Source: a virus
DNA length: 44,332 nucleotides
Reading direction: 5' to 3' (one strand)
IMG/VR virus record: IMGVR_UViG_3300038701_002607
Span: 1 to 44,332 of that record
How positions within the stretch are numbered: position 1 is the first letter of the stretch; every line of letters starts with the position of its first letter. Positions 22,244 through 44,332 of the stretch are shown piece by piece. Position numbers and translations under genes: made by a program. Below the pieces are notes generated by a model, which worked only from the letters and a program-made list of their open reading frames with translations, was not told where the DNA came from and made no database searches.

Positions 22244-23302
22244 ATGGCAACGCAGACGCAAACACATGCGCGCAACATCACCATCAACATCGTGCTCTCT
22301 GCCCTGGCGGCTGCTCAGAAGGGTTTCGGCGGCACGTTGGCGATCGTCCCGGCCTCGAACACCATGAGCGGCGAACCCATCACCACGCTCAACACAGTTG
22401 ACGATGGCCAGGCGCTCGTGACAGCCGGGGAGATGACAGCCAATACATTTTTGGGCGTGCAGGCGTTCTACAACCAGGTGCCATCTGGCACGGAGTTGAA
22501 GATCGCCCCGTTGCTCGTCGGCGACTCAGGCAACTACGCCACTGCATTGGCGAGGGTACGGGCTGTCGATGATGACTTCTACGGCGTGGCCATTGAGCCT
22601 CGATCGTCCACCGAGATCATGACCGTCTCGGCTGCTGTGGAGTCGATGCGCAAGCTGTTTGTGTTCCAAAGCGGCGATGCTGACTGGTTGACATCTGGCA
22701 AGCCCGCCGCGTTTGCAGACACTGCCAACCGTGAGCGCTCCATCGGCATCTACCACGACACCGCGACGCAGTTTGCAGATCTTGCGTACCTGTCCAACCG
22801 CCTCGCCGCTGACCCCAATGTGAACAGCGCGCCATGGGATGCGCCGCTGGGCGGCGTGGCGTCCTATGCCAGCGTGTTGACCTCCACGCAGGTCGGGTTT
22901 TTGGCAGACAACAACATCAACTTCGGCCTGCCTTACGCGGGTGAGCCGTTCTTCGTCGACCCTGGCCACAACACCAAGGGCCGCGCCATCCATGAGATCC
23001 TCACTGGAGATTGGTTTGAGGCCCGCCTGCTCGAAGAGGTCGCGACGACGAAGGTCGAGTTGTCCAAGATCTTCGAGAAGTGGGTTTTGGACGAGGGTGG
23101 CCAAAACCTGTTGCTCAACCTCGCAGCTGGCGTTGCCGGACAGGCCGAGCAAGCAGGCCACATCTTGCCAGGATCGGCTGAGTTTGACCGCCCACCCATC
23201 TCCGATGCAGACATTGCGGCTGAGACGCTCACGCTTACAGGCAGCGCTCGGTACGCAGGAAACGCGCGCAAGTTCAACATCACGATCAACCTCTCCAGAT
23301 AA
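22244..23302 (+). CDS. Tail sheath protein (DUF3383-like)
   Basis: 352 residues. The N-terminus NITINIVLSALAAAQKGFGG and a C-terminus with LTGSARYAGNARKFNITINLS fit DUF3383 sheath proteins. The middle alternates strands and helices, including SVGIYHDTATQ-like ERSIGIYHDTATQFADLAYL. The sheath contracts around the tube to drive it through the envelope, so its presence makes this a myovirus. It is slightly shorter than many family members. Confidence 0.85.
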   Translation: MATQTQTHARNITINIVLSALAAAQKGFGGTLAIVPASNTMSGEPITTLNTVDDGQALVTAGEMTANTFLGVQAFYNQVPSGTELKIAPLLVGDSGNYATALARVRAVDDDFYGVAIEPRSSTEIMTVSAAVESMRKLFVFQSGDADWLTSGKPAAFADTANRERSIGIYHDTATQFADLAYLSNRLAADPNVNSAPWDAPLGGVASYASVLTSTQVGFLADNNINFGLPYAGEPFFVDPGHNTKGRAIHEILTGDWFEARLLEEVATTKVELSKIFEKWVLDEGGQNLLLNLAAGVAGQAEQAGHILPGSAEFDRPPISDADIAAETLTLTGSARYAGNARKFNITINLSR

Positions 23303-23342: not shown

Positions 23343-23798
23343 ATGCTTACACCAAACAAACAGGCCATGCAGGCGACACTCCGTGCGGTGATGTTGACCA
23401 TGGGCATCCACAAGATCGGCGGTGGTGCGACCAATGGTTTCGTTGAGCTTGAGGAGCACAGCGCCGACGCCGAGTACATCGTCGGTAGGCTTGGTCACGT
23501 CATCATCAACGAGAACGTCAACGACGTGCTGTTGATGAAGATTCACGTCCTTGGCAGCACCAAGGAGTATCGCATCCTCGCAGAGTTGATGCAGAAGCAG
23601 TTCGACAGCTTCCGTACGGTTGATTGGCCGTTGATGCTCAAAGACCTCAATAACGGCGACGTACTGTCCGATCCGCACGCCGCGTTCCTCAAGCGTCCAT
23701 CGATGAGCAAAGACGGCCAAAACCATGACAAGACGTTTGAACTCATCCTGCCAAACGGCAAGCGCAACCAGAAGTTTGGGTTGTTCAACCTGTTCTGA
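23343..23798 (+). CDS. Tail tube protein (DUF3277-like)
   Basis: 151 residues, beta-rich, with VIINENVNDVLLMKIHVLGS, DWPLMLKDLNNGDVL and FELILPNGKRNQKFGLFN. Size, order after the sheath gene and the terminal strand motif match tube proteins of DUF3383/DUF3277 phages. A 61-base gap to the chaperone gene follows with no gene. Confidence 0.8.
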   Translation: MLTPNKQAMQATLRAVMLTMGIHKIGGGATNGFVELEEHSADAEYIVGRLGHVIINENVNDVLLMKIHVLGSTKEYRILAELMQKQFDSFRTVDWPLMLKDLNNGDVLSDPHAAFLKRPSMSKDGQNHDKTFELILPNGKRNQKFGLFNLF

Positions 23799-23859: not shown

Positions 23860-24453
23860 ATGCAGCACAAAACCGAAACATTCACAGTCAAAGACCGATG
23901 GGGGCAGCCTCACGAGTATAAAGTCGACCCCTCAGATCCCGATGACTTCATTGAGCTTGCAGCCTTGATCAATTCGTTCGCTGTCGAACCTGTTGCCGAG
24001 GGCATCCAGGCATTGACGCGTTCAAAAGAGCAGATCGTTGGGTTGGTCAACGCATACATGAGCGGCGAACTCAAAGGCAAGAGCAACGACGAGTTGTTCA
24101 GTTACGCCTTAAACAGCGGTGTTATTGAGGCGGTGCTTGGTCACGTCAACATCAGCCAAATCACCGGTGCGGTTCGCGCTGGCATTATGGTGCCAGGGAT
24201 GCTCTCGCGCATCCGTCCGCTGTTCAAGATGGCGTTTCGTGATGGCAAGTCATTGAGTCAGGTGACGAACTACAACGAAGCGTTCATGCGCAACTACAAA
24301 GAGCTGTTCGAGGCGGCCTGGCGCATCATGTCATATGAAGGGCTATTCGTTTTTTTAGATATAGCCTCGGACAACGAGGCCGAAACCACCAATTCAAGCA
24401 CGCCGAATCAGCTCGACTCGCCAGAGAGTACAGACTCGACTGGTGGCGACTGA
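23860..24453 (+). CDS. Tail assembly chaperone, short (zero-frame) product
   Basis: 197 residues, helical, between tube and tape measure, the position of gpG/gpGT-type chaperones. After LFVFLDIASDNE the zero-frame tail is low-complexity (Thr/Ser/Asn/Asp) and ends at 24453. At 24351-24357 the heptamer T TTT TTA sits in the correct phase for -1 slippage, so this is probably one of two products made from the gene. The chaperone coats the tape measure protein during tail assembly in known phages. Confidence 0.85.
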   Translation: MQHKTETFTVKDRWGQPHEYKVDPSDPDDFIELAALINSFAVEPVAEGIQALTRSKEQIVGLVNAYMSGELKGKSNDELFSYALNSGVIEAVLGHVNISQITGAVRAGIMVPGMLSRIRPLFKMAFRDGKSLSQVTNYNEAFMRNYKELFEAAWRIMSYEGLFVFLDIASDNEAETTNSSTPNQLDSPESTDSTGGD

Positions 24454-24584
24454 GACCATGGCTTGAGGGGCTTGGTGAGTTGGATGCGATTCATCAATGG
24501 CGCCTGCCCCGCATCGTTCAAGCGCACGTGGCGCTGGATATTCGAGATTATGAGCGTGAAGCCAATCAGCCCACGGAGACGTGA
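24357..24584 (+). CDS. Tail assembly chaperone, -1 frameshift extension
   Basis: The -1 frame from AGA 24357 is open for 75 codons to TGA 24582-24584 and fills the otherwise empty gap to the tape measure start, which overlaps it as TGATG. The extension reads as real protein: SARLAREYRLDWWRLRPWL, then IVQAHVALDIRDYERE. Joined to residues 1-166 of the gene at 23860 it gives a product of about 241 residues, analogous to lambda gpGT. The slippery heptamer T TTT TTA is at 24351-24357. Confidence 0.8.
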   Translation, partial: RYSLGQRGRNHQFKHAESARLAREYRLDWWRLRPWLEGLGELDAIHQWRLPRIVQAHVALDIRDYEREANQPTET

Positions 24585-26380
24585 TGTCAAACGAGACAGT
24601 ACGCGAGGTTATGACAAAGTTCGGGGTAGAGGCTGATGCAACCAACCTCAAGAGATACGAAAAGGCCATCAATGGCACCAAGAAGGTGCTCGGTGGCCTG
24701 TTGAAGTTGACCGCAGCTGTAGGCGTTGGCCTGGCGGCTGTGGGCAAGAAGCACCTCGACAACGCCAAGAAGACGGCAGCCGAGACCGAGGCCATCAAAC
24801 AGCAGGCCGATGCGCTCGGCATCACCACTGACAGGTATCAGAAGTACTTGCACGCGGTGAAACGATTTGGTCTCGACCAGAACGACCTCTCCGACATCCT
24901 CAACACCATCGCGGACAAGGCCGAAGACGCCAAGGGCGGCGCGAAGTCGATGATCGATGACTTCAAGCTCGCCGGTGTGACGGTCCAGGACCTCAAGGGC
25001 AAGAAGCCGTGGGAGGTTTGGGAACTGTACTCTGACCGCATCTCGAAGATGACAGATGTATCAAAGCGTAACAGCTCGGTGGTGCGCATCCTCGGTGATG
25101 ATGTGGGGCGCAAGGTGCTCCCGCTGATGATCCAGGGGTCCAAGGGCATCAAGCAATACGGGGATGAGGCTGAGCGCCTGGGCGTGATTCTGGACAAAGG
25201 CGCGATCGAGAAATCGCGCCAGTACTCCATTGAGTTGTTTCGACTCGACGCCATGGTTACAGGGTTTCGACGCCGGTTGACCATGCGCATGATCCCGACG
25301 TTGACCAGGTGGACGCGCAAGATTGTCGACCTTGGCATCAAACACCGCAAGATGATCGAGACGAAGGTGGTCTCGTTCTTCGAGAAGGTCGAGAAGAAGG
25401 CCAAAGGCGCGTACAACTGGCTCAAGAAGTATGGGGATGGCAGCGCGATCAACGGTCTCAAAAAGATCGCGACGTGGGTTGCATCGGTGGTCGGTGCGCT
25501 CGGCGGTCTGTTTGTGCTCAACAAGCTCATCGCCGTCTTTACGTTCTTTGGCGGCATTCTCAAGGCCATTGCTGCGGTTGGCGTCGTGCCGTTTCTAAAG
25601 ATAGGGGCAGCCATTGCCTTTGTTGTGGGCTGGATCACGGTGGTGACGTTGCTCATCGAAGACTTTATCGTGTGGATGCGTGGCGGTGATTCCATCACCG
25701 GACGTGTGCTCAAGAACTGGAAGAAGGCAGGCGGCAACCTGGGGCGTTTGGCGACGTTTTTTAACGCGGTCAAGCGCGCAGCGCTGGCGTTCTTTCGGGT
25801 GCTCAAGCGCATCGGCGGCGCCATTTGGGACCAACTCAAGGCCAACGCGCGGGTATTCTTTGAGTATGCCTCAAAGGTCTGGGGATGGATTTGGAAGAGG
25901 GTCAAACCCTTCCTCTCAAACGTGCTTGATGGCGCCACGCTGATGTTCAATGCACTGGCGGATTTCCTCGAGGACCTCGACAAGAATTGGGACAAGTATC
26001 TCACGAAAATAGACGATCGCATCAGGCCATGGCTGACCAAGATTCAGGGCTATTGGGAGACGTTCTTTGGTTATATCAAAGCGGGCTTTGAGTACATCAG
26101 CAAGTTCCTGGGTGATGCGCAACAGGGCGCTGATCGCATCCTCGCCAAACTGAGCAACCTGCCGGGCCTTGGCGGGTTTTACGCCAGCATGAGGCCATTT
26201 GTGGGCGGGCAGGCCGGGGCAGTGAGTTCTATCAACAATCAGACCTCCAACAACAGCTCGATCAATAACTCGTCGAACGACACCTACAACATCAATGTCG
26301 GCGGTGGCGGTGATGGTATGCGGCAGGGTCGAGATGTGCGTCGTGGCATCAACCGACAAGCCAGCCTGAAGGGGGCGTAA
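24584..26380 (+). CDS. Tape measure protein
   Basis: 598 residues. Helical, Lys/Ala-rich, with a hydrophobic central stretch (KIATWVASVVGALGGLFVLN and GAAIAFVVGWITVVTLLIE), aromatic repeats (WGWIWKRVKPF) and a low-complexity Asn/Ser tail near the end. It sets tail length and later leaves with the DNA. At about 1.5 Angstrom per residue it predicts a tail of about 90 nm. GGAG precedes ATG 24584; an in-frame GTG at 24581 is possible. Relatively short for a myovirus. Confidence 0.9.
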   Translation: MSNETVREVMTKFGVEADATNLKRYEKAINGTKKVLGGLLKLTAAVGVGLAAVGKKHLDNAKKTAAETEAIKQQADALGITTDRYQKYLHAVKRFGLDQNDLSDILNTIADKAEDAKGGAKSMIDDFKLAGVTVQDLKGKKPWEVWELYSDRISKMTDVSKRNSSVVRILGDDVGRKVLPLMIQGSKGIKQYGDEAERLGVILDKGAIEKSRQYSIELFRLDAMVTGFRRRLTMRMIPTLTRWTRKIVDLGIKHRKMIETKVVSFFEKVEKKAKGAYNWLKKYGDGSAINGLKKIATWVASVVGALGGLFVLNKLIAVFTFFGGILKAIAAVGVVPFLKIGAAIAFVVGWITVVTLLIEDFIVWMRGGDSITGRVLKNWKKAGGNLGRLATFFNAVKRAALAFFRVLKRIGGAIWDQLKANARVFFEYASKVWGWIWKRVKPFLSNVLDGATLMFNALADFLEDLDKNWDKYLTKIDDRIRPWLTKIQGYWETFFGYIKAGFEYISKFLGDAQQGADRILAKLSNLPGLGGFYASMRPFVGGQAGAVSSINNQTSNNSSINNSSNDTYNINVGGGGDGMRQGRDVRRGINRQASLKGA

Positions 26381-38380: not shown

Positions 38381-39592
38381 TTATGGGTGAAGTTCCGCCC
38401 ATTTTCGCTTCAACATCACCCCTCTTGTTGAGTCTAGTATGGCAATGGCAGAGCGTATTGCATCAAATGTTTCAAAAAAACTACGGCCCATAATGACACC
38501 ATTTTGATTCATTTTATCAAGTATTTTTGATGCGTCATCAAGGAGTTCAAGGTATCCGTCTTTGGTTAGTTGATACGTTGCTTTCCTCACTCTATGCGTT
38601 TGACTTCGAAGTGCTTGGAAGTAGTGTCCGAAAGAGTCAGGACTGCTTTTAAAGTCAACCGAGTTGGGTTTTGGACCAAGAAACAGACGTTCAGAATATG
38701 TACAGTTAAATGAATCTGGTGGTTTGAGATCTGAAAGAATTGCACGTTCTTGTGCAGTGTCCATAAAGCGCAGGTTACATTCAGACAGACAAGATGGTGC
38801 GTAGTACCAATTACCCCTTCTTCGGTGGGTGTCTTCTTCATTTTTCATGAAGTTGTCGACAGAGAATTTTCTTACGTTGAGCCAATTGCCTGAACAAATT
38901 GCATTTACCGATGCAACACCAAGGCAAAGGCTTTGGTAGTTGGTATATCCAACAACTACCTTTTTTCCCATCAGCTTTAGCCCTGCCACTAGCTCCATGA
39001 GGCCAGAAAACCATTTTTGTTCGCTCACAAGATATTCATTGCTGGGGGTTTCTGGCAACAGATAGATCCCTTCAACATTGCAAGTTTCGAAGAATTCTAG
39101 AATTTTCTGAACGTCCAAATCATTGGAGATGATTTCTGCACCAATTGCTATTGTTGAGTAGAGCGGTAGTTCGTATTGCTGAGCTAAAGCGACTTTGCAG
39201 ATGCTTTCAGTGATTGATAACCAGTCATCTGACCAGCTTGATGCGAACATATTTGGCAAAATAAAAGCCGACGTTTGAAGCTCCCGATTTTTTTCATACA
39301 GTTGATTTAGATATCTGAGTTGAGAATCTTCTGAATAAAATTCGCTGGTCTCATAATCGGATGGCCAAAAAGGGTGGGCGATTATTTTGTGATGATTGCT
39401 TCTTGGTGAGTAAAACTGAGGATCAAGTAATACCTCAGCGCCTTTTGTTTTGGTGATACCTTTTGCCCATTTTGTAAGCTGCTTGGGTGTGGCGTCTCTT
39501 GGGCTGAGCACCACAGTGCCACCTCCCCAAATTTTGGTCATATCCTGACTGAGTTGACCCATTCCGTGTCCGAACTGGATATAAAAATCCAT
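38381..39592 (-). CDS. Cargo cassette protein C: about 400-residue barrel-like enzyme candidate
   Basis: 403 residues from ATG 39592, behind GGAGGG and one base after the kinase stop. It begins MDFYIQFGHGMGQLSQD and continues as regularly alternating strands and helices: GTVVLSPRDATPKQLTKW, AEVLLDPQFYSPR, VEGIYLLPETPSNEYLV, KKVVVGYTNYQSLCLGVASV, NAICSGNWLNVRKFS. That periodicity and the DPQFY, GYTN and SGNW turns suggest a TIM-barrel enzyme, perhaps distantly like tRNA-guanine transglycosylase-type proteins. A Cys-rich piece (YYAPSCLSECNLRF) may bind metal. The C-terminal third is helical. AT-rich codon use unlike the phage body. No family recognised with certainty. Confidence 0.8.
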   Translation of the reverse strand: MDFYIQFGHGMGQLSQDMTKIWGGGTVVLSPRDATPKQLTKWAKGITKTKGAEVLLDPQFYSPRSNHHKIIAHPFWPSDYETSEFYSEDSQLRYLNQLYEKNRELQTSAFILPNMFASSWSDDWLSITESICKVALAQQYELPLYSTIAIGAEIISNDLDVQKILEFFETCNVEGIYLLPETPSNEYLVSEQKWFSGLMELVAGLKLMGKKVVVGYTNYQSLCLGVASVNAICSGNWLNVRKFSVDNFMKNEEDTHRRRGNWYYAPSCLSECNLRFMDTAQERAILSDLKPPDSFNCTYSERLFLGPKPNSVDFKSSPDSFGHYFQALRSQTHRVRKATYQLTKDGYLELLDDASKILDKMNQNGVIMGRSFFETFDAIRSAIAILDSTRGVMLKRKWAELHP

Positions 39593-39593
39593 A

Positions 39594-40445
39594 TCATTTT
39601 CCCTCCAAAGTTTCTTTGATTTCACCGAACCAATCTTGAGCCTCTTGGATGTTCTTTTGGCGTTGGGTCGGATGTTTTTGAATCAATGTTGATATAAAGT
39701 CACTAAATGATGACTCAATGTCCTCTTTTAAGTTGAGTTTTGGTAGTTGTAGCCTTTCTACTCTGTTAATAACTTCAAAGCGATCTTTTGCGTTTTGCAG
39801 GAATGGGTTTTGACCCGTTAATGATTCATACAAAACTACTCCCAAAGAGAATAAGTCTGCTCTGTTGTCGATTTTGTCCTTTTTGTTGCGAACTTGTTCC
39901 GGCGCACTGTACCCGAGCGTAAATACTCCAAATTCTCTTCTTGTCTCGGTGAGAGAATCCATATCCAAGTGTCTGGCTATGCCAAAATCAATCAACCAGA
40001 AGTTATTGTTGATATCAACGATGATATTGTCTGGTTTGATGTCTCTGTGAACAATGCGTTGTTGCTCTGCAAGAGCAAGAGTCTTAAGTATTTGATCGCA
40101 AAGTTTTAGAGCCAAAGCGAACGACAACGTTTTGTGTTTGGCTAATCTTGTTTTTAGGCTTTCCCCATCGATACGTTGTTCAAGTATCCAAATATACTCA
40201 CCCATTGGGGTTTCAACAGTCCCTTTGTTGTGAATGGTTGGCACCCAAATAGCGTCCACCAATTGGGTTGCCTTGATTTCCCTGTCGAGGCGTTCTTCTT
40301 TGTGCTTCTGAATGAGTTTTAAGACAATATTACCGTGTTGCTGATGGTTCCCTGATAAAACAATTTTTTGGCCGCCTTTAGCCAAAAAAGCCAAATCATT
40401 AAGTGACTCAAATTTTTCGGAAACCCAATTAAGGTTGATTGTCAT
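39594..40445 (-). CDS. Cargo cassette protein B: Ser/Thr protein kinase
   Basis: 283 residues, a complete eukaryotic-like (Hanks-type) kinase domain with no membrane segment. Glycine-rich loop LAKGGQKIV is weak; the ATP Lys is in NIVLKLI; catalytic loop HRDIKPDNI (about 131); LIDFGIA (about 154); activation segment ending GYSAPEQ; LFSLGVVLYESLTG of the F-helix. All catalytic residues (K, HRD, DFG) are present, so it should be active. AAGGA precedes ATG 40445; an upstream in-frame start at 40499 lies within the nuclease gene. The gene sits between A and C in one transcript. Kinases in phage cargo can trigger defence (for example Stk-type systems); the trigger here is unknown. Confidence 0.93.
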   Translation of the reverse strand: MTINLNWVSEKFESLNDLAFLAKGGQKIVLSGNHQQHGNIVLKLIQKHKEERLDREIKATQLVDAIWVPTIHNKGTVETPMGEYIWILEQRIDGESLKTRLAKHKTLSFALALKLCDQILKTLALAEQQRIVHRDIKPDNIIVDINNNFWLIDFGIARHLDMDSLTETRREFGVFTLGYSAPEQVRNKKDKIDNRADLFSLGVVLYESLTGQNPFLQNAKDRFEVINRVERLQLPKLNLKEDIESSFSDFISTLIQKHPTQRQKNIQEAQDWFGEIKETLEGK

Positions 40446-40458
40446 ATTCGTATTCCTT

Positions 40459-41238
40459 TTATTCATTGTGTGAATGTTGAATTCTCCAAATCCATTCATT
40501 TAGCAACCAAGAAATGTATGAAGTCTGAGCTGACCGCGCTTTTGGCTTGGACAGTGTTTGGGTGGTGGCGTTTGAATGCGACATCACCCCTATTCCTCGC
40601 TGCCTTGCTTGATTTAACACATCAGATGATTGTGTTTTTGGTATTAGCGCGTGAGATTCAGAACTGAACCAAGTATTTGCGTGGGCTTGGTTTATCAATC
40701 GTTGAGATCCTGTCATTTTTGCTTCAATAGAAAATATATGTTCAATTGCGAAAAATTGATGCGTTGACCTCAACTTACATTTGTTGGTTCGTCTTATGAG
40801 GAGTTGAGCTGCCTCTATTCTGTCTAAGTTAGCGCTGAGGGTTTTAGGGAATAGTTTTTTTAAAAACTCGTACGAAGTCCACCCCATACCAGACAAGACG
40901 TGGAGCAATTTGATATCCAGCGGTTCAAGTTGAGACCTTTCAACCGCCCAATTTTGCATTGCCTTTTTCTTCCAAACGACAGCAACAATATCTGGGTATG
41001 ATCCGCATATTTCAGGTTCAATAAATATGCTCAACCCTGATTTTTTAGGCACGAACCATGTCTGGTTATTGAGGAATTCGCGAACAAATTCTAGCTCAGG
41101 ACCAACAGTTGGCGTCCTTTTTCGAAACCCTAGGCCAATGCCTTTTGATTGCTCATCTGTAACAACTGCACTTGTTCCACAAATTGATTGACAGTTCTTG
41201 TTGGATGTATACATGTCTTGAAGAGTTGTTGGTTTCAT
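40459..41238 (-). CDS. Cargo cassette protein A: PD-(D/E)xK-like nuclease with inserted winged helix
   Basis: 259 residues. The pattern PD (residues 82-83, SYPDIVAVVW) and ExK (172-174, FSIEAKM), followed by NQAHANTW and IPKTQSSDVLNQARQRG, is that of PD-(D/E)xK nucleases, whose QA helix follows the ExK strand. Between the two motifs (about 105-160) is a winged-helix-like unit (LDIKLLHVLSGMGWTSYEFL, then ANLDRIEAAQLLIR). This split is unusual. First gene of the cassette; no Shine-Dalgarno is visible before ATG 41238. AT-rich. It could cut invader or own DNA when the cassette is triggered. Confidence 0.72.
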   Translation of the reverse strand: MKPTTLQDMYTSNKNCQSICGTSAVVTDEQSKGIGLGFRKRTPTVGPELEFVREFLNNQTWFVPKKSGLSIFIEPEICGSYPDIVAVVWKKKAMQNWAVERSQLEPLDIKLLHVLSGMGWTSYEFLKKLFPKTLSANLDRIEAAQLLIRRTNKCKLRSTHQFFAIEHIFSIEAKMTGSQRLINQAHANTWFSSESHALIPKTQSSDVLNQARQRGIGVMSHSNATTQTLSKPKARSAQTSYISWLLNEWIWRIQHSHNE

Positions 41239-41293
41239 GCGGTTTTATTGGATTTAAAGTGTGTTGAATTGGTTCAAAAGTTCGAAATCCTTA

Positions 41294-41354
41294 GCACATA
41301 AGCCCCATTATTTCTCTTCGCAGCACGAGCGAACATGTGAGTTTTTTTATGTGC
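41294..41354. other. Inverted repeat upstream of the cargo cassette
   Basis: GCACATAA (41294-41301) and TTATGTGC (41347-41354) are exact complements and enclose a TTCGC-7nt-GCGAA hairpin. It lies in the 244-base non-coding gap 41239-41482, which must hold the leftward cassette promoter. The gap is AT-rich and ends with a CGTC-A7-GACG hairpin near 41442-41456. It may be an operator or leader structure. Confidence 0.4.
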
Positions 41355-41482
41355 GCCCAATGCTATTGCTTTAAGTCGTTGAAATCAAATGTAAAGTTGA
41401 GTTATGTTTTTTGTGGATATTTCTTGTGTGAATTTAATAGCGTCTTTTTTTGACGTTATTTTGAGGTCTGCACTGATTGCTT

Positions 41483-42424
41483 TCACACCAATCCCTCCAC
41501 AAACCGTTCATACATCCTCTTTGACTCAATGGGATTGTTGGTGTGTTCCTCGATTTTAAACGAACCACGTACAAACATCTCACCATGATGCAACTCACTG
41601 CCCTGGTCAGAGCGCGAATATCGAATGAGGAAGCAACGACGTTGTTGTGGTCCGTCTCCTTCAGTTTTGGTCTCAGTGAGCACCACAGCTCGGTGCCATT
41701 GACCTGAGATGGTACCAGCGACACCACCTGTAAACTTCTCGTCGACTTCGAGCTTTTGGTCGGCCTTAAAGAGCAACTTCCAATCACCGTTGCGACCACA
41801 CCGCACCGTCAAGGTGTCCTTGCGGGGTCCACGGTTTTCCAGCTCAATCGCATCAACATCATCGGGGTTGAGCCTCCAACGCGCGTTGATCTTGATGGCG
41901 GGCAGGCGTTGCCCCTCGATCATCTTGCGTATGGAGACTTCCGCACATCCACAAGCCTCGGCGGCCTGCTTGGTTGTCATGGTATAGGCGCGTGCGAGGT
42001 CGTTGGTTTTGTGGATGGTGTCGTCGGCGAATATCCAAGTACCACCAATCAAACGAGCATCAAGCACCGCTCGGTCGACCAGGCGCCTCAACGTGAGTTC
42101 ATCGATTTTGGTGTGCTCCAATACCTCACTCATGGGGAGGGTGTATTCGTCACCAGTGGGTTTTTGTTGGGCAATCTTTTGGGCCATGACATCCAACATC
42201 CATGAAAATTGAGGTGTGCCCATCAACGCGGACGTGACCCGCAACCCGCCATCACCATCAGATTGAACGTGTTCAAAGGGGCTATCCCCAAATAGATAGG
42301 CGCTCAACTCAACTTCACCAATGGACGGATCGGCGAGCAGCTCCATCGCGCGTGCAGCAAACGCTTCTTGTTCTGGAGTTGTGGGCAGGTTGCCGATCGT
42401 GCCGTCTTGCTTCGTGTATTGCAT
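41483..42424 (-). CDS. DNA-binding protein with MerR/excisionase-type HTH
   Basis: 313 residues. About residues 140-195 contain a helix-turn-helix of the excisionase/MerR sort (YTMTTKQAAEACGCAEVSIR, then LPAIKINARWRLNPDDVDAI). The N-terminal 120 residues are acidic and helical; the C-terminal 110 form strands (WHRAVVLTETKTEGDG, RCFLIRYSRSDQGSELHHGE). GGAG six bases before ATG 42424 supports the start. It follows the 62-residue gene in one transcript under the double operator at 42720-42760. Probably a regulator; what it controls is not evident. Confidence 0.75.
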   Translation of the reverse strand: MQYTKQDGTIGNLPTTPEQEAFAARAMELLADPSIGEVELSAYLFGDSPFEHVQSDGDGGLRVTSALMGTPQFSWMLDVMAQKIAQQKPTGDEYTLPMSEVLEHTKIDELTLRRLVDRAVLDARLIGGTWIFADDTIHKTNDLARAYTMTTKQAAEACGCAEVSIRKMIEGQRLPAIKINARWRLNPDDVDAIELENRGPRKDTLTVRCGRNGDWKLLFKADQKLEVDEKFTGGVAGTISGQWHRAVVLTETKTEGDGPQQRRCFLIRYSRSDQGSELHHGEMFVRGSFKIEEHTNNPIESKRMYERFVEGLV

Positions 42425-42473
42425 TGTGTGCTCCACATAATAAGAAAGGGAGGGGTAACCCTCCCCCTTTGGG

Positions 42474-42662
42474 TTACTTGAGTTGGTAGGCTATCCCGAG
42501 GTCTTTGAGCAATTTCTCAAGCTCGGTGGTATCTTTCATGATGAAGGTCAGTTCGAGTCGCCCTCTGCCGAGGTACTTGAGGTTGGTGAAGTCTCCGTCG
42601 ATTTTCTTTTCGATGGCTTCGACCTCTTGGGCGGTTGGGGCTGTCAGGATGAGTCGTTTCAT
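42474..42662 (-). CDS. Small hypothetical protein
   Basis: 62 residues of ferredoxin-like strand/helix plan (KRLILTAPTAQEVEAIEKKI, then LELTFIMKDTTELEKLLKDL). GGAG precedes ATG 42662 by five bases. First gene behind the 42720-42760 operator. Could be a dimerising regulator or antagonist; not recognised. Confidence 0.7.
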   Translation of the reverse strand: MKRLILTAPTAQEVEAIEKKIDGDFTNLKYLGRGRLELTFIMKDTTELEKLLKDLGIAYQLK

Positions 42663-42719
42663 GTTGTCTCCGTTGAGTTGTGAAGCTGCTGTGTGCCGCC
42701 TCGGTGATTAAGTTGTCTC

Positions 42720-42760
42720 AAATATCGTCGATAATTTCAATTTGAATATCGACGATATTT
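42720..42760. promoter_or_regulatory. Symmetrical double operator
   Basis: A perfect 14-bp inverted repeat, AAATATCGTCGATA (42720-42733) and TATCGACGATATTT (42747-42760), has a 13-base AT-rich spacer. Each arm contains its own 11-bp palindrome, TATCG-W-CGATA. The 10-mer CGACGATATT is shared with the switch operator at 7103-7112. It sits between the terminator at 42764 and the leftward genes, where the promoter must be, so a regulator binding here would repress the 42662 operon. Confidence 0.7.
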
Positions 42761-42763
42761 AAA

Positions 42764-42806
42764 AAAGAAGAAGCCACGAGCAATAAGCGATCGTGGCTTC
42801 TTCTTT
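42764..42806. terminator. Bidirectional terminator after the lipoprotein operon
   Basis: A perfect 16-bp stem, AAAGAAGAAGCCACGA (42764-42779) and TCGTGGCTTCTTCTTT (42791-42806), with 11-base loop. On the minus strand the stem ends in a T run (from AAAAAA at 42761-42766). It ends the transcript from the lipoprotein gene. Stretch 42807-42929 shows no further gene. Confidence 0.85.
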
Positions 42807-42929
42807 GGTTGCGTTTACCCCGCCCTCGAACTTAACTGCCGTATGGCGCGTGGAGCAGGCTGAGGGGCGCTGACATGTGGGTTATCGGCCCGCCTGCCAG
42901 CGTGTTGCGTATTTTGTTGAGAATATCGC

Positions 42930-44048
42930 TTATTGGTTGAACCACATGTCAAACTCGACCTGCTTGGTGCCCAACATGCCCTTCTCGGGAATGATAAGTT
43001 TGAGCTTGCTCCGTTTCTCAACTGAATCCAGGGGCACCTCAAAAGCGATGTATTGTTCTACAGGCAGGCCCGGCTGAAGTTCTTGGACGAGCAGCTCGGC
43101 CTTGTTCGTCATGACCAATGCTCGGGTGGCCTTGCTTGACGCTCTGAACTGCCGACCTTTGGCATCCTTGAGCACCAGGTCGCCTGTGAGCACCGTGCGT
43201 GTTTTGTTGTCCGCGTTTTTGATGCTGTACTTGATGGTGACGAAGGTGCCGCCCTTGGTTGCCTTTTGTTTGATAAATCGGTTTTTGCCGATCTGTTTGG
43301 TCAACTCCGCGCTGATGACCTTGTATTCAAAGTCACCCAGCTTGAAGACCTTTCCGTAGTCGGGTGTCTTCATGTCTTCACGCATTATGGGAAGCAGTAG
43401 GTCGAGAAGCTGCTGCGTTTTGTCTATCATTAAAACAGTTACTTGATCCTGAATATGACCAACCATGATGTGAGAACCCTTGCAATTACCAATGTAACTT
43501 TCAGACTCAAAACTTTCTTGAATTTCTTTTTTGTTCGAAACGATCACCTTCTGTTTAGTGCAGAGCATCAATGGTAATTTTTTAAATGCTTTGTTGTTTC
43601 GCTTAAACTCCTTTGCCTCAATGTAGCTAATTTGTTTATTGAAGGTCATGAGGTGAACTAGGGCGGTGTTGCCAAATATTTTCAGCTTGGGACATAGCCA
43701 GCTGACTCTCTCCAAATGCCCAAATGGTCCACCTTTTTTCTCAATATCTTTAACCACCCACCCTTTTTTACACTTGGGCAAGGTCTCTTTCTTCGTGAGC
43801 GTTTTGCCTGACCACCCAAAGTTGAAGTCACCCAAGGGCTCCTCCGGCAAGAGCTTTGATGGTTGATATTTTGGAGGTTCAGGCGGCTTCTTTTGTGCTG
43901 GTTCAGCCTTTGGCTTGACTGCGACTGGTGGCTTGGTTGTGTCATCGGAATTGTCTGTGATCTTGACTGGCTTCTTGGAGTCGCATCCCAAAATAAACAG
44001 ACAGGCGCTGATGGCGATCAGGTACTTCATTGCATCACTCGGCTTCAT
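42930..44048 (-). CDS. Lipoprotein with DUF4352-like C-terminal domain
   Basis: 372 residues from ATG 44048. A signal peptide ends in a lipobox: MKYLIAISACLFILGC, with acylation expected on the Cys. A Pro/Lys-rich linker (VAVKPKAEPAQKKPPEPPKY) follows, then an AT-richer middle domain with paired cysteines, then a C-terminal immunoglobulin-like domain of DUF4352 type (GGTFVTIKYSIKNADNKTRT, LVLKDAKGRQFRASSKAT, YIAFEVPLDSV). The start could also be ATG 44069 or 44030. It forms an operon with the junction-spanning membrane protein. Lipoproteins made by prophages often block superinfection; that use here is inferred. Its central part differs in base composition from both ends. Confidence 0.82.
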   Translation of the reverse strand: MKPSDAMKYLIAISACLFILGCDSKKPVKITDNSDDTTKPPVAVKPKAEPAQKKPPEPPKYQPSKLLPEEPLGDFNFGWSGKTLTKKETLPKCKKGWVVKDIEKKGGPFGHLERVSWLCPKLKIFGNTALVHLMTFNKQISYIEAKEFKRNNKAFKKLPLMLCTKQKVIVSNKKEIQESFESESYIGNCKGSHIMVGHIQDQVTVLMIDKTQQLLDLLLPIMREDMKTPDYGKVFKLGDFEYKVISAELTKQIGKNRFIKQKATKGGTFVTIKYSIKNADNKTRTVLTGDLVLKDAKGRQFRASSKATRALVMTNKAELLVQELQPGLPVEQYIAFEVPLDSVEKRSKLKLIIPEKGMLGTKQVEFDMWFNQ

Positions 44049-44058
44049 TTTTAAAACT

Positions 44059-44332
44059 TCACTGATCATGGGCGATTTCCATCATTGCGTTGATGATCTG
44101 GGTGTCCTGCATTGGCACATAGCCCGCTTCACGGAACACGAATGCCTTGGGTTGTCCTTGGGATGGCTGCACCAACATGGCGTTGATTGCAGGTTGCCAG
44201 CTCATTAAATCATTCCATGGCATTGACCAGTTTTGGCCATGGCCTTGGCTGACGAAGGTTACGCGTTGGGGAGTGATGACCAAGACTCCTTCACCTTCCA
44301 TGTGGTCATACTTGACCTTGTGTTCGATGATC
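44059..44332 (-). CDS. C-terminal part of the junction-spanning PH-like membrane protein
   Basis: This is the other end of the gene that begins at 658. Bases 44205-44332 duplicate the window start, and 44204-44059 is the unique C-terminal part ending in TGA at 44061-44059. The residues here finish the PH-like domain (EGVLVITPQRVTFV, then a strand with FVFREAG, then an amphipathic C-terminal helix). The only difference between the two copies lies at base 127/44331 (c versus t), changing a Val codon GTC to Ile ATC, which is conservative. Read as a linear sequence it would look like a separate 80-residue gene, but that is an artefact of the cut point. Confidence 0.8.
   Translation of the reverse strand, partial: IIEHKVKYDHMEGEGVLVITPQRVTFVSQGHGQNWSMPWNDLMSWQPAINAMLVQPSQGQPKAFVFREAGYVPMQDTQIINAMMEIAHDQ
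44205..44332. repeat. Terminal direct repeat (right copy), circular overlap
   Basis: Second copy of bases 1-128 with one mismatch at 44331. Joining 44204 to base 1 restores one uninterrupted gene across the junction, which supports circularity over a true packaged terminal repeat. Confidence 0.93.

Follow-up and report, generated by a model that had tools for sequence, protein, structure and literature searches.

In all likelihood, a programmed −1 ribosomal frameshift provides the phage examined here with two forms of its tail assembly chaperone. The window, which is the whole stretch of 44,332 bases analysed, carries an ORF between the tail tube and tape measure genes, and this ORF contains a slippery T run from which the −1 frame stays open to the tape measure start. 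The analysis shows the layout and its phase, an extension homologous to those of relatives, a site of a type conserved among them and a predicted hairpin; slippage itself, its rate and the chaperone role are inferred. The same interpretation, a programmed −1 frameshift making a long tail chaperone, had been offered in an earlier sequence-only reading of this DNA and finds support in the sequences of relatives. The features concerned are the following.

22244–23302, + strand: tail sheath of the DUF3383 type (phrog_205, E 1.5e-29; also a sheath profile, in the building of which the window sequence was included)
23343–23798, + strand: tail tube protein (phrog_280 virion structural protein, E 5.3e-8; located where Pam3 and relatives have their tube gene)
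23860–24453, + strand: zero-frame ORF with a 197-aa product, the shorter version of the putative tail assembly chaperone (flanked by the tail tube and tape measure genes; matches phrog_1613 weakly)
24351–24357, + strand: slippery heptamer T_TTT_TTA (direct sequence and phase; T_TTT_TTN at the homologous place in 19 other loci)
24357–24584, + strand: −1 frame extension, predicted C-terminal domain of the long chaperone form, 75 codons plus TGA (extension profile and hhalign)
24584–26380, + strand: tape measure protein, ATG at 24584 (PHROG tape measure families, best E 1.9e-26)

Read directly, the sequence has seven Ts at 24350–24356 followed by an A at 24357. The zero-frame codons at 24349–24357 are GTT TTT TTA, which confirms the exact slippery phase first proposed: T_TTT_TTA at 24351–24357 stands in −1 tandem-slippage phase relative to ORF 23860–24453. 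The −1 frame is open from 24339 to a TGA at 24582–24584. After a slip it offers 75 sense codons (24357–24581, reading AGA TAT AGC ... ACG TGA), and the TGA shares its A with the tape measure ATG (24584–24586). The length of this frame, the overlap of its stop with the tape measure start and its filling of the 128-base gap between the zero-frame stop and the −1 TGA (24454–24581) all stand as originally described. The main ORFs of the window comprise 12,865 codon positions, and T_TTT_TTN is in phase at 4 of them, this site included. About 0.05 occurrences are expected per ORF of the length of the chaperone ORF; the layout exceeds chance.

The genes run in the order sheath, tube, chaperone ORF, tape measure, and a Dit-like/baseplate gene is a further neighbour of the chaperone ORF. 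The DUF3383-type sheath, tube, tape measure and baseplate neighbours therefore identify this region as a tail module and the phage as one with a contractile tail. An integrase and a DnaB helicase are also encoded in the window. Its right arm (38381–44301), with all genes on the minus strand, has a GC content of 43–49% versus about 56% elsewhere and is possibly accessory or defence cargo. It encodes a Ser/Thr protein kinase resembling PADLOC PD-T4-6 models (E 5e-47, although many models of this kind are hit by kinases in general), together with an HTH_17 protein, a DUF4352 protein and an unknown protein of 414 aa.

The zero-frame ORF weakly matches phrog_1613, 'tail assembly chaperone' (PHROG, E 0.0051), the family matched by the zero-frame genes of 14 of 16 relatives. 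Relatives' zero-frame genes at the homologous place all belong to Phage_TAC_15 (PF21822). The ORF of the window has no Pfam match, and a profile comparison of its zero-frame part with the relatives' profiles gave no match. The N-terminal half is, as far as these searches indicate, too diverged for firm family assignment, and the chaperone identity rests on position and extension because the zero-frame part is barely recognisable. The 197-aa product ends in a tail beyond the slip site that is rich in S, T, N, D and E, for which profile comparison found no match to relatives. The predicted structure of the zero-frame ORF was useless (mean pLDDT 46).

The −1 extension is recognised more clearly. 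The suggestion that its codons are protein-like is borne out by gene-like codon usage and by a match to homologous extensions. Codon usage scores 0.09 bits/codon, where real genes span −0.02 to 0.47 (5–95%) and wrong frames −0.53 to −0.05. A profile of relatives' −1 extensions, built with the window left out, was searched against 1181 six-frame segments of the window, and the −1 extension was the only clear match (E 4.7e-4; runner-up 1.4). None of 2000 shuffles of the extension scored as well, and an earlier, smaller profile likewise placed it first (E 0.17). A direct hhalign comparison with relatives' extensions gave E 1.1e-4, with a probability of only 56%, over 43 residues (26–68), pairing RLDWWRLRPWLEGLGELDAIHQWRLPRIVQAHVALDIRDYERE of the window with NLNMFLWRPILAEPPIYTQRDLREWVTLADVFDAHEALDLRAAIAE of Pam3. 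Against a profile of the fusion, the score rose from 6.0 bits for the N-terminal part to 16.5 with the extension, compared with a mean of 5.7 and a maximum of 9.9 for shuffled extensions. Judged by these comparisons, the extension is homologous to the −1 extensions of relatives. Its predicted structure is modest and helical (mean pLDDT 61).

Extensions of 14 of 15 relatives match phrog_4364, a family of 'unknown function' that, from these matches, appears to be the frameshift-made extension domain; the window's own extension was not among the matches to this family in the PHROG search. Five public phage records assign the 3′ part of the −1 extension to a hypothetical gene of its own, which ends at the same stop codon (L008 5613–5765, L009 5556–5708, L016 5430–5522, L019 5089–5379 and L023 4887–5039).

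Such annotation of the homologous stretch, present in several GenBank records, is what an independently started small gene would predict, here for example from TTG 24480; otherwise the stretch might be non-coding spacer open by chance. We consider either very improbable. The −1 frame contains no ATG or GTG start, and its sole alternative start, the internal TTG at 24480, would lose the LDWWRLRPW part that is homologous to relatives. Moreover, the relatives' small ORFs share the stop of the −1 extension, and the extension is open back to the slippery site.

No close relative of the window emerged when phage records were searched by tblastn with the zero-frame ORF, or when viral and genome contigs were scanned with patterns from the fusion, the tape measure, the sheath, the portal and the terminase. 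Distant relatives were reached through portal and sheath searches, and the stretch between tube and tape measure was examined in isolates and IMG/VR contigs. Rhizobium phage TM3_3_3 and phage M1 were left out, the ORF examined being not clearly a chaperone. T_TTT_TTN lies in phase at the homologous place in 19 of the 24 other loci with a −1 layout: Pam3, Rhizobium phages TM26 and Y55, ctfzr933, Vibrio 1.123.O, S144, Y2, Farigoule (a near twin of Y2), SppYZU05, S1249, ZPAH14, Meifeng, FP_Brigit, RCIP0034 and five IMG/VR contigs. Besides these contigs, the layout spans phages of cyanobacteria, Alpha- and Gammaproteobacteria and Faecalibacterium. The site falls towards the 3′ end of the chaperone gene, in most cases preceded by an Asp codon ('DFF'). 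At 17 of the 19 loci the −1 frame can be followed from it to a stop that coincides with the tape measure start or lies close to it (78 bases short of the annotated start in Vibrio 1.123.O); contigs L068 and L103 are cut off too early to show how far the frame reaches.

The other five −1 loci (MD-2021a, DIBBI, contig L039, VCM and pOW20-A) enter the extension at a different site. Three of these sites, A_AAT_TTT, C_CCT_TTT and C_CCT_TTG, fit XXXYYYZ; those of VCM and pOW20-A are of a GTTTT type that does not strictly fit. C_CCT_TTG belongs to IMG/VR contig L039 (11240–11715 and downstream), where it is apparently used for a −1 shift in a related tail module, with an extension reading ...WSLGDVLDACRVLDALEDAEAE. 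By the terms of the sequence-only reading, relatives with neither the heptamer nor an open −1 frame would have spoken against it. The survey favours it, since even the five loci without T_TTT_TTN have a −1 extension. As to conservation of the heptamer itself, T TTT TTN is kept in relatives and the exact T TTT TTA is not.

Use of the motif is concentrated at this one place. Phe-Phe pairs are spelled T_TTT_TTY in 16 of 16 cases at the slip site versus 2 of 118 elsewhere in the main ORFs of the same phages. The tabulated Fisher P of 7.5e-19 overstates the significance, since the phages are related to one another and the motif itself served to find the sites, but the contrast is still large. T_TTT_TT is retained in sequences of up to 65% GC, where GAC TTC TTC would code for the same residues. 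Recoding takes another direction in the Gram-positive-type phages AP45 (L013 4941–5403) and D6E (L010, 4936 to the tape measure start), in which a short chaperone ORF is accompanied by an extension in the +1 frame that stops close to the tape measure start or directly at it; the direction therefore differs within this sheath-phage group. We lean towards an ancient U-run slip site, mostly T_TTT_TTN, in the chaperones of DUF3383-sheath phages of cyanobacteria, Proteobacteria and Faecalibacterium, from which the window's lineage would have moved to U_UUU_UUA with a compact downstream hairpin.

The isolates also bear on the quality of the sequence. The window is a single environmental contig with a T7 run, and one extra T would join the two frames, such that a homopolymer sequencing or assembly indel could hide a true gene of one continuous 241-codon frame. 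However, the same split occurs at the same place with intact runs in isolates (Pam3, the Rhizobium phages, S144, Y2, Meifeng and others), which makes an indel most unlikely. In addition, the zero frame runs 31 codons beyond the site, as it does in relatives with a low-complexity zero-frame tail.

Slippage by RNA polymerase rather than by the ribosome would lead to a nearly identical protein outcome: addition of a U on the T7 run would let a share of the mRNAs encode the fusion in one frame, and several relatives also have 7 or 8 Ts. Nevertheless, the run is no longer than six Ts at 10 of the relatives' 19 sites, where the surrounding GC content is moderate to high and polymerase slippage would be weaker. 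The exact tandem-slippage phase, which polymerase would not require, is present in all 19, a point that is only partly independent as the motif search demanded the phase. The alternative −1 sites A_AAT_TTT and C_CCT_TTT have short runs. We therefore regard transcriptional slippage as improbable. On the sequence evidence, ribosomal slippage explains both the phase and the occurrence of other XXXYYYZ-type sites at the homologous place.

Two elements flanking the heptamer were considered as stimulators of ribosomal slippage.

24364–24380, + strand: candidate stimulatory RNA hairpin GCCUCG-GACAA-CGAGGC (−11.4 kcal/mol, z −4.0)
24337–24342, + strand: candidate SD-like element GAAGGG, 8 nt upstream of the heptamer (read from the sequence; speculative)

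The hairpin, which the sequence-only reading did not mention, has a 6-bp GC-rich stem that follows the heptamer after a 6-nt spacer. None of 200 shuffles matched its stability, and an equally GC-rich stem at such spacing occurs at 0.16% of window positions by a definition set after the hairpin had been seen. Six nucleotides downstream of the heptamer is a usual place for a frameshift stimulator, and the folding prediction suggests that the hairpin is likely to be stimulatory. Strong stems are predicted at the sites of Pam3 (7 bp, 3-nt spacer) and FP_Brigit (10 bp, 5-nt spacer), but hairpin strength varies and a stimulatory structure conserved across the relatives' sites was not found. The GAAGGG element is not conserved in relatives, and an Rfam search gave no match. 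A terminator formed by T run and hairpin was rejected: the T run precedes the stem, and a terminator scan found none.

We propose that the short form of 197 aa comes from the majority of ribosomes, which pass T_TTT_TTA in the zero frame and terminate at 24453. The hairpin would slow a minority, and so perhaps would the A-site Leu codon TTA, which is uncommon in the window (3.3% of its Leu codons). The Phe and Leu tRNAs would then both move back by one base, and translation of 75 more codons would yield a minor long form of 241 aa. On the model of lambda gpG/gpGT, the N-terminal part common to both forms may coat the tape measure protein while the extension recruits tube subunits, so that the ratio of the two forms would matter for tail assembly. 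Counting against this proposal, U_UUU_UUA is less shifty than A_AAA_AAG in E. coli (PMC5009743). Slippage on U_UUU_UUA yields a mixture of Leu (70–80%) and Phe (20–30%) at the A-site position (PMC5009743), and two junction peptides are therefore predicted. Their tryptic sequences are IMSYEGLFVFLR and IMSYEGLFVFFR, with the junction IMSYEGLFVF(L/F)R; LDWWR and IVQAHVALDIR are predicted from the extension.

The lambda heptamer is G_GGA_AAG and the lambda tail is not contractile, unlike the T_TTT_TTA and the contractile tail of the phage described here. The two systems share a pair of chaperone forms, predicted here, that −1 slippage produces ahead of the tape measure gene. In lambda G/GT, the founding case, the ratio of the two forms is about 30:1 (PMC5009743). 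The lambda-like layout pointed out in the sequence-only reading is indeed shared, although closer parallels are found in P2 E/E′ and in the GTTTTT site of Vandenendeviridae and Andersonviridae.

In phage P2, E/E′ uses a T6G slippery run (Christie et al. 2002, as described in PMC3931495). The window resembles it in the contractile tail, the T-run slip site and a −1 extension that overlaps the tape measure start and has no start of its own. P2 has T_TTT_TTG where the window has T_TTT_TTA, and the likeness is one of layout, with no sequence similarity claimed. A conserved −1 frameshift at GTTTTT in tail assembly chaperones of Vandenendeviridae and Andersonviridae was described in the 2025 paper on phage Adele, the phylogeny of which is rooted on the Rhizobium phage RHEph04 (PMC12846349). 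RHEph04 was also returned by our portal search and is named like the Rhizobium phages sampled. These families share with the window a related tail module, the place of the gene, a T run ending the short-form gene and a −1 frame open to the tape measure. In contrast, the window and most relatives sampled have T_TTT_TTN, and the A-site codon of the window is TTA (Leu) rather than Phe.

The identity with the HIV-1 gag-pol heptamer noted earlier holds: the HIV-1 site is U_UUU_UUA followed by a stem-loop (PMC4373837). The resemblance lies in the signal only, U_UUU_UUA plus a hairpin (here at a 6-nt spacer, z −4.0); gene and organism are unrelated, and the identity of the heptamers is chance convergence. 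No report of T_TTT_TTA at such a chaperone gene was found in the literature searched. We make no claim of a first, because the founding comparative paper, Xu et al. 2004, lay outside that search.

The phage very probably makes a longer chaperone by a −1 slip on its T run, a trick known from many tailed phages. Given the frameshifting known in the chaperones of lambda, P2 and the Vandenendeviridae and Andersonviridae, the window is a new, diverged example. The finding supplies the annotation of a virion-assembly protein that would otherwise be missing from this very diverged phage, and the slip site gives a sharp prediction for mass spectrometry. A T-run slip site marks the chaperone gene in a broad range of contractile phages, and most of their records sampled here either omit the extension or list it as a hypothetical gene of its own (phrog_4364). 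If U_UUU_UUA and the hairpin do cause the shift in the window's lineage, a bacterial virus would possess a signal built like a retroviral one, with a mixture of Leu and Phe at the junction.
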